From Halapricum desulfuricans (lineage in GTDB: Archaea; Halobacteriota; Halobacteria; Halobacteriales; Haloarculaceae): a DNA stretch of 64,000 bases. The translations under genes were made by a program, and so were the position numbers. Where the stretch lies: positions 186,001 through 250,000 of the forward strand of contig NZ_CP064788.1 in assembly GCF_017094525.1 (NCBI RefSeq), in the 5' to 3' direction. Shown here piece after piece: positions 49,159 through 50,599 of the stretch. The notes under the pieces are model-generated. The model searched no databases, was not told the origin of the DNA, and saw only the letters and a program-made list of their open reading frames with translations. Every line of letters begins with the position of its first letter. The stretch's first letter is position 1.

Positions 49159-49403
49159 CGTGCCCCGGGCGCACCGGTGTCGTTTCCGGTTTCTCCCGTG
49201 TCAGGCACGCTGTCGCGGAAAACACCTGCCGTCTCGTCCGCGCGCGCTGCACGCGAGTCGATCTCGCCTACTACCCTGTCAGACAGCCTCCGTCTCACGT
49301 CGTTCATACTCTACGGTACTCGCTGGACGCGGATGACGGTTCCGCGTATGCCGTTGACAGGCGTGTCTGTCCGCCGCTGTGCCGCTGTGGTCCCGTCGTG
49401 TGA
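49159..49403. other. Non-coding region upstream of the multicopper oxidase
   Basis: About 245 bases without a convincing gene, ending at the mini-element/IS composite. It should hold the promoter of the oxidase gene, but no strong TATA box was identified. Confidence 0.35.
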
Positions 49404-49449
49404 TAGTGACCGTTGTACCGATTTGCCGGTGCGACCGCACGGCGAGTGG

Positions 49450-49980
49450 TCAGCGTAACTTCTGGACATCTGGGAGGAACGTCTCGATCCAATCACTAGC
49501 GAAGCTGACCTGCTGACTCAACCGGTGGAATGTCTCGGTGAGGAACTCTCGAAAGTTGTCTTTGTCATCGAAGATTTCAGGAGAGATATCTCGTTTGAGG
49601 TCTTTCCAGAGCGGTTCGATTGCGTTCAATGTCGGTGAATACGGCGGAATGAAGACGAACTCGATGCCGAGTTCGTCGGCCCGTTGCTGTGTGAGTTTCG
49701 CATGGTGAGAGCCGTAGTTATCGGCCACGAGCAGAATCCGGCCCCGCGGATTCTGCTCGCGGATCTCCTCTAACGCCTCGACGATTGTCTCTTTGACTAA
49801 CCGCTTTTTGAACGTAATCACACTTTGACCAGTCAGCGCGTAGAAACCGATCGACCGCCATGGAAACGTCACTAGCGGTTTTGCGATCGTGACCGTCCGA
49901 TCAAACGACCAGAGTCGCTGTGAATTCTCGAACGGTTGAGGCCACGCTTCATCGAAAAAACCCCAACACGACGGGATCAT
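49450..49980 (-). CDS. IS630-family transposase, catalytic part (ORF B)
   Basis: 176 codons. The DDE triad is visible: first Asp in 'GFFDEAWPQP', second in 'ILLVADNYGSHHAKL', Glu in 'PPYSPTLNAIEPLWKDLKRD'. Its own ATG at 49980 lies within ORF A, and the conserved 'VVLGFFDEA' start is split between the two frames, so the active enzyme is probably an A-B fusion made by a +1 (or -2) frameshift on the TTTTTTC run at 49954-49960. Confidence 0.85.
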   Translation of the reverse strand: MIPSCWGFFDEAWPQPFENSQRLWSFDRTVTIAKPLVTFPWRSIGFYALTGQSVITFKKRLVKETIVEALEEIREQNPRGRILLVADNYGSHHAKLTQQRADELGIEFVFIPPYSPTLNAIEPLWKDLKRDISPEIFDDKDNFREFLTETFHRLSQQVSFASDWIETFLPDVQKLR

Positions 49981-50509
49981 CCTCCTCGGTATCGTGGTCG
50001 TCCTCGCCGAGCGCCTCAGTCAGGCGCTCGGCGAGAATCTCATCTGCGTCAGCCGGACTACGCGGATCCATCGGCCGCGGCTTGGCGTAGTTCATGCCCG
50101 CGGCACGAAGTTTCCGGCTGAGATGCGCCGGGTGGTAGGTGACATCGTAGCGGTCTTCGATTAGGGCGTGAATGGCTTGCGGTGTCCAGGGTTGATCCTC
50201 TTCGAGGATACCACAGAGTTCATCGAACTGCGTGGGAGTGAGCTTCGGCGGCCGGCCGCCGCCGAAGCGCGGGCGGAGTCCCTCTACACCGTCATCATTC
50301 CACGCGCGAGCCCATCGACGCGTCGTAGATCGGGAGATTCCGACGCGTCGGCCCGCCTGCTTGCGGGTATCGCCCTGATAGAGATTCTTGATGAAACACA
50401 GCCGCCGGACGAGACGGGTCTCGTCCGCCGACTGTGCATCTTCGATAGCCTGCTCGAGCTCTTCTTCCGACAAATGCCGCACTAACTCTCCGCGTTGGCT
50501 TGTGTTCAT
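49949..50509 (-). CDS. IS630-family transposase, DNA-binding part (ORF A)
   Basis: 186 residues. Two helix-turn-helix regions typical of IS630/Tc1 transposases: 'TRKQAGRRVGISRSTTRRWA' near residue 55, and 'GGRPPKLTPTQFDELCGIL...WTPQAIHALIEDRYDVTYHP' near 85-130 with the GRPP linker. The end 'PVVLGFFR' runs into the catalytic frame. It begins 47 bases inside the right end of the element. Confidence 0.85.
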   Translation of the reverse strand: MNTSQRGELVRHLSEEELEQAIEDAQSADETRLVRRLCFIKNLYQGDTRKQAGRRVGISRSTTRRWARAWNDDGVEGLRPRFGGGRPPKLTPTQFDELCGILEEDQPWTPQAIHALIEDRYDVTYHPAHLSRKLRAAGMNYAKPRPMDPRSPADADEILAERLTEALGEDDHDTEEDDPVVLGFFR

Positions 50510-50599
50510 CGAGAGCTATACGCTTCCAGAAGAGTCAACTCTTTCGCAGACCACTCTTCGTGCGGTCGATCCGGAAGGGACGTACAACGGTCACTATGA

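Follow-up and report, generated by a model that had tools for sequence, protein, structure and literature searches.

An IS630-related insertion sequence in the hairpin loop of a mini-element, and the palindromic targets of its haloarchaeal relatives

To our knowledge, TA is regarded as the sole target of transposases of the IS630/Tc1/mariner type, and for IS630 itself a preference for CTAG was reportedly described by Tenzen and Ohtsubo in 1991. The available text on ISY100, a member of the IS630 family, describes insertion at TA with duplication of the TA and a family with a single transposase gene (PMC2170065), and IS630 is placed at 5'-NTAN in the accessible part of another report (PMC5678879). 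The same report covers IS1272, of the IS1182 family, whose inverted-repeat-replacing transposition targets inverted repeats that differ in sequence (terminal repeats of the target 5-17 bp) with no target duplication and for which a cruciform model was proposed (PMC5678879). The REP-targeting insertion sequences IS1397, ISKpn1, IS621 and ISPsy8 go for host REP elements; ISPsy8 enters a predicted hairpin on its axis of symmetry and duplicates 3 bp, and the families named in the available part of that account are IS3, IS110, IS4, IS256 and IS5, not IS630 (PMC1525189). In Haloquadratum walsbyi, the SMR-A repeats (about 110 bp, with terminal inverted repeats and no transposase) lie inside palindromes close to the ends of IS605-type elements and PATEs, without target duplication; the portion of the source at hand calls their mobilisation enigmatic and their inverted repeats unrelated to known transposons (PMC3119063). 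A literature search over titles and abstract openings, with few subscription journals among them, found no account of IS630 elements that target palindromes or insert without duplication.

A mini-element split by an insertion sequence

The window is the whole stretch of DNA that was analysed, 64 kb out of the 2.89-Mb single-contig genome of Halapricum desulfuricans. The features of the locus are as follows.

49401-49403, no strand: TGA, left copy of the 3-bp target duplication of the mini-element (from sequence)
49404-49443, plus: left half of the mini-element, TAGTGACCGTTGTAC...GACCGCACG+GC (from sequence and copies in the genome)
49432-49441, plus: left arm of the target hairpin, CGACCGCACG, with loop nucleotides 1-2 at 49442-49443 (GC) (from sequence and folding)
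49444-50556, minus: IS630-like insertion sequence, 1113 bp, ends GAGTGGTC(A)GCG / CGC(A)GACCACTC (from three further genome copies)
49450-49980, minus: transposase frame B, 176 aa, DDE half (from Pfam and NCBIfam; D-(34)-E by reading)
49949-50509, minus: transposase frame A, 186 aa, helix-turn-helix half (from Pfam and NCBIfam profile matches)
49954-49960, minus: TTTTTTC at the overlap of frames A and B, candidate +1 frame-change site, TTT CGA TGA (from alignment of relatives)
50557-50596, plus: right half of the mini-element, TT+CGTGCGGTC...GTACAACGGTCACTA (from sequence and copies in the genome)
50559-50568, plus: right arm of the target hairpin, CGTGCGGTCG, with loop nucleotides 3-4 at 50557-50558 (TT) (from sequence and folding)
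50597-50599, no strand: TGA, right copy of the target duplication of the mini-element (from sequence)

A preliminary description of this DNA had recognised a mini-element with perfect 15-bp ends and TGA flanks, and its coordinates proved exact: the left end, TAGTGACCGTTGTAC, occupies 49404-49418 directly after one TGA, and its perfect inverse stops at 50596, directly before the other. The mini-element is 80 bp long, 49404-49443 plus 50557-50596, and is parted, as had also been claimed, by an insertion sequence (IS) with two transposase frames and terminal repeats of its own, which are short (GAGTGGTC[A/T]GCG). Most of the 72 genome matches are mini-element halves, many of them adjacent to each other. 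Joining the two window halves restores a 76-bp core, GTGACC..GGTCAC, a length shared by 11 of the 15 genome rows examined (one of the remaining four resembles a chance match). In solo mini-elements of the same genome the halves join exactly, with 0 nt duplicated and 0 lost, and the solo copy L017 carries a hairpin identical over 22 nt, GACCGCACG-GCTT-CGTGCGGTC, so the IS entered between loop nucleotides 2 and 3. The exact borders that the preliminary description had proposed to draw from an empty site thus came from solo mini-elements and homologous uninterrupted sites, and they bear out its placing of the insertion point in the loop of a palindrome: 2|2 in the 4-nt loop GC|TT, between 10-bp arms.

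Folded as DNA, the joined mini-element forms a single long hairpin (-34.4 kcal/mol, z -8.5). It is largely self-complementary, and the genome holds dozens of half-matches to it (at loci including L009-L030 and L251-L257). T(G/C)A stands on both flanks of most of the copies examined by eye. A search for an autonomous partner in seven stretches gave only further or decayed copies of the mini-element.

The left and right ends of the locus give a gap-free alignment of ~54 bp that contains conserved blocks, and this led us to suspect a single element whose long imperfect terminal repeat has the mini-element halves as its outer part, with no nesting at all. Three other copies of the IS in the same genome span all 1113 bp at 99.7-99.9% identity; they align over 49444-50556 between unrelated flanks, and the many IS-free mini-elements have both halves directly joined. 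With these two sets of copies the single-element reading is almost certainly wrong and was ruled out in favour of one element nested inside the other.

The preliminary description had also called the element IS630-type, and the profile matches agree. Against NCBIfam NF033545 (IS630 transposase, length 299, cut-off 100), frame A covers positions 2-146 at 111.2 bits and frame B positions 147-298 at 125.1 bits, so that the two jointly cover 2-298; the Pfam matches of the two frames are HTH and DDE_3. None of the IS1182-family models matched the transposase at E 0.001. Read by eye, the DDE triad of frame B has 34 residues between D and E (DNYGSHH...NAIEP), and this D-(34)-E spacing is that of the IS630 family. 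Two traits of the family differ here: the window element has two frames instead of a single transposase gene, and no duplicated TA target. Fragments of a diverged relative lie elsewhere in this genome (G000:C1:777967-780994; L005-L007 and L096), at 73-81% identity.

The division into two frames is shared by most relatives. Of 31 aligned elements, 26 read TTY TTT (C/T)GA at the frame junction and have one base more there than the single-frame relatives; the extra base is absent from L101, L102, L103 and L139, the transposase gene is one frame in L101, L102 and L139, and L036 has lost the junction site. By our reading the first catalytic D, in frame B, lies just past the site. Since the frame offset has long been conserved, it suggests a +1 frame change that is programmed, or in some elements slippage on the run of Ts. 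The available text of PMC5009743 speaks of frameshifting among IS630-family elements.

Insertion sites of the haloarchaeal relatives

Relatives were collected from 146 genomes of the family (46 gave a match of any kind), 391 class genomes (31 matched at E 1e-30), genome contigs (25 loci) and plasmids (26 records, 12 of them taken). After removal of 30 duplicates and 21 records without a usable end pair, the 85 records left 34 non-redundant two-ended insertions. L032, which carries a further insert, was left out; its flanks look palindromic.

The preliminary description had proposed looking at whether other copies of the IS also interrupt palindromes. All four copies in this genome sit centrally in inverted repeats, each of a different sequence, although that of L002 is imperfect, with 6 uninterrupted pairs. 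Across the relatives, the flanks of 21 of 34 insertions form an inverted repeat that runs for 8 bp or more without interruption at the junction, compared to 8 of 1122 mispaired flank pairs, in which left and right flanks were drawn from different copies (Fisher p about 1e-29, the mispaired sets being non-independent), and compared to a background of 0.4% of window positions. Among junctions of mini-element copies scored in the same way, 0 of 13 reach 8 bp, and the longest run is 4. Averaged over all 34 insertions, the first two flank bases pair at 0.26 and 0.21 (control 0.26 and 0.25), bases 3-13 at 0.53-0.79 (control 0.24-0.41), and those past base 13 at 0.35 and 0.32, near the control values of 26 and 27%. 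The arms are mostly about 8-18 bp long, usually around a 4-nt loop, with no sequence in common.

Folding the flanks placed the junction in an apical loop in 30 of 34 insertions, exactly 2|2 in 21 of them, compared to some apical loop in 392 of 1122 mispaired pairs. Under a narrower folding criterion the counts were 20 of 34 against 102 of 1122, a less striking control, so the run-length control is the sharper of the two. A sequence motif at the target was considered and rejected: information is at most 0.72 bit at any single position over the 34 insertions, without a consensus. Judged from these comparisons, the target palindromes differ in sequence and are struck at their centre of symmetry. 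Insertion into unstructured DNA at a simple TA, the outcome named beforehand as speaking against structural targeting, is not the rule, as TA stands on both sides of the element in 0 of 34 cases and five of the 34 are unexplained. The earlier suggestion that the IS may target cruciforms is accordingly supported as far as palindromes go, and the anatomy of the sites is what points to extrusion. Some sites recur: the same IS1595-like and IS110-like transposase-gene hairpins were struck in several genomes (L033, L072, L074; L003, L041, L087).

Palindromic flanks could also be the product of the insertion, for instance through inverted duplication of a flank, which would likewise account for unrelated inverted flanks without direct duplication. 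Empty sites were sought for 20 palindromic junctions, namely all whose runs reach 8 bp, the window's own excepted, and a later alignment covered all 34 junctions against the loci already collected. Uninterrupted homologues bridge 14 of the 34. Ten of these 14 alignments are gap-free, with 0 nt duplicated and 0 lost (L002, L003, L062, L063, L070, L098, L099, L130, L139 and L141); at L004, where the fold gives a 3-nt loop, 1 nt is duplicated, and the alignments for L033, L071 and L119 are gapped. For L063, four empty sites (L154, L155, L156 and L190) are 100% identical over 100 bp. Both arms are already present in the uninterrupted homologues, namely the solo mini-elements and the gap-free sites, indicating that the palindromes are older than the insertion wherever such a homologue can be aligned. 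Palindromes made by insertion were rejected for sites with an empty counterpart, and as a general account they are extremely improbable.

The other 13 of the 34 insertions fall under the 8-bp criterion. Three have imperfect palindromes (L002, L100 and L119). In L061, L087 and L073 a single flank runs, in the uninterrupted homologue, into a hairpin at the exact junction point, the two flanks of L073 deriving from two different hairpins, and in L072 the flank continues into an imperfect hairpin there. Because the uninterrupted homologue of the flank is a hairpin at that very point, these four are probably copies rearranged after insertion; L036 may be another, a weaker case made by eye. For L064, L069, L097, L113 and L115 we have neither a palindrome nor an explanation.

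More distant haloarchaeal relatives (ISHam1, ISHti6, ISNpe13 and a Salinibaculum copy; 45.6-51.5% protein identity) end in TAGTG...CACTA or close to it. Fifteen of 20 such TA-ended elements were scored, with borders taken from copy comparison and placed at TA; L076 runs off its contig, L208 shares the site of L205, and L198, L206 and L207 have unsure ends, although L206 looks palindromic. By the 8-bp criterion 11 of the 15 lie in palindromes, compared to 2 of 210 mispaired pairs, and 4 of the 15 fail. Empty sites were sought for 12 of the 15 junctions, omitting three without a palindrome, and six were aligned. In three of them, those of L199, L200 and L203, the target has no TA; the queries carry one TA and the empty sites none, which rules out TA duplication there. 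L209 fits a 1-nt duplication, L205 a 2-nt one, and the sixth aligned site is that of L196. TA-ended elements would be read as IS630 elements with a duplicated TA, a reading with which these three empty sites disagree.

Inspection by eye showed 2|2 hairpins around elements annotated as ISNpe13 and ISHti6 and a palindrome around L250, and no palindrome at the copy annotated ISHam1 (L246) or at L249. A tree of 43 rows, built without five short ones (L084, L113, L195, L210 and L243), places the 27 GA/TC-ended elements on one side of a branch with support 96/93; its Methanohalobium row carries a provisional TA-ended label. No palindrome was seen by eye at three copies of the Geobacillus element ISBs2, so the habit is shown within the haloarchaea only. 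A strict terminal pattern for short non-autonomous relatives of the clade found them in 0 of 381 genomes.

Hairpins in transposase genes

Thirteen target frames were read from uninterrupted loci, and the ten that were scanned all match transposases: IS66, IS110, IS701, IS1595 (twice), IS4 (twice), IS6, IS5 and ISH3, with the IS5 match under its curated cut-off. A further 21 frames were read across joined flanks, and ten of them, mostly the longer ones, were scanned (unscanned: L036, L064, L069, L072, L073, L101, L102, L103, L113, L115 and L120). Six of these ten are transposases, IS630, IS5 and IS110 above cut-off and IS66, IS1634 and ISH3 below, and four had no match. Overall, transposase matches account for 16 of the 20 frames scanned, 12 of these above cut-off; the 16 represent ten IS families in all. 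This is a share biased upward because repeated DNA makes empty sites easier to find.

These counts would also be expected if the element preferred, or were tolerated in, transposase genes, with hairpins incidental to genes that are rich in them. Counting stems of 8 bp or more, eleven target transposase frames do contain another 26 hairpins (2.3 per kb), compared to 0.42 per kb outside target frames and 0.27 per kb in the window. A preference for the gene, however, does not predict insertion at the centre of symmetry, mostly 2|2, and the window target is a non-coding mini-element. We therefore regard that account as very unlikely and retain the palindrome as what is chosen; transposase genes are plausibly hit often because such genes are hairpin-rich. 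Many perfect hairpins, above background, occur in the transposase genes examined from several unrelated haloarchaeal IS families. The IS in the window contains four conserved hairpins of its own.

49654-49677, no strand: 10-bp arms, 4-nt loop (relatives aligned)
50003-50035, no strand: 14-bp arms, 5-nt loop (relatives aligned)
50242-50268, no strand: 11-bp arms, 5-nt loop (relatives aligned)
50406-50427, no strand: 9-bp arms, 4-nt loop, sense position about 140 (relatives aligned; coordinates from sequence)

Stems of at least 9 bp occur at 2.8 per kb in 31 related elements, compared to 0.08 per kb elsewhere in the window and to 0-2 stems per shuffle when all 31 elements were shuffled. As the 31 elements are related, these amount to four conserved hairpins and not 97 independent ones. 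In one of the conserved hairpins both stem sides change together in L101-L103. The 5-nt loop of this hairpin (sense position about 538) appears in both orientations across elements, as if inverted, examples being GATCA/TGATC and GATCG/CGATC.

A structural route to the target, and known systems

Taken together, the insertion sites make it highly probable that this haloarchaeal IS630-related group has a transposase that picks its target by DNA structure, with blunt or near-blunt joining at the centre of a palindrome. The sequence comparisons establish target choice and borders; from them we infer a target in the form of an extruded cruciform or a single-stranded hairpin, contact of the protein with the hairpin, and activity of the element. 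As linear duplexes, palindromes of arbitrary sequence would share only the capacity to pair with themselves, so the transposase would have to meet them folded. It probably attacks the loop tips of an extruded cruciform or a single-stranded hairpin, and the element joins blunt or nearly so, without TA and usually without target duplication. Symmetric attack, with two opposed 4-nt loops cut centrally, would give flush insertion, and a small offset between the two cuts could yield duplications of 1-2 nt such as those seen. The victim in the window is the hairpin of the 80-bp mini-element; elsewhere it is frequently a hairpin in the transposase gene of another IS.

Recognition of a single-stranded hairpin, on the lagging-strand template or in a transcription bubble, and not of a duplex cruciform, fits the anatomy equally well, and the available text of PMC6006769 describes IS200/IS605 elements as using single-stranded DNA. 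IS630-type transposases, on the other hand, attack a duplex target with both 3' ends, staggered, in the part of the ISY100 report at hand (PMC2170065), and flush insertion into two strands suits two opposed loops better, an argument rather than a test. On this balance we consider single-stranded recognition unlikely, if a serious contender, and favour the extruded cruciform.

More broadly, and with somewhat less than even confidence, we propose a lineage of structure-guided haloarchaeal IS630-like transposases that would recognise hairpins once extruded, whatever their sequence, and integrate flush into the middle of the loop. Its members would be largely parasites of the hairpin-bearing transposase genes of other ISs, SMR-A-like repeats might be non-autonomous passengers, and the TA of the TA-ended branch would be element sequence. 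If this is true, a clade that ignores TA and reads the fold would represent natural shape-directed integration by a DDE enzyme, and natural insertion maps would record which palindromes extrude in living archaea. The finding also exposes an unexplained hairpin richness in the haloarchaeal transposase genes examined.

Compared with known systems, the element shares with the IS630 family (IS630, ISY100; Tc1/mariner-like) an NF033545 transposase, here in two pieces, a DDE triad and terminal inverted repeats; unlike that family, it has no TA target or TA duplication and enters the centre of a palindrome. Insertion into palindromes is common to it and the REP-targeting ISs, whereas its palindromes are mutually unrelated and often lie in transposase genes, of ten IS families in all. 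Like IS1272 it takes inverted repeats of no fixed sequence without duplication, but IS1272 deletes and replaces its target palindrome, while the element here keeps both arms and the loop bases, and the transposase belongs to IS630 and not to IS1182. SMR-A, likened here by description, is also haloarchaeal, with terminal inverted repeats and duplication-free insertion into palindromes, and differs in that the present element encodes a transposase. The element therefore works like IS1272 and SMR-A, and by descent it is IS630-related, departing from that family in its TA.
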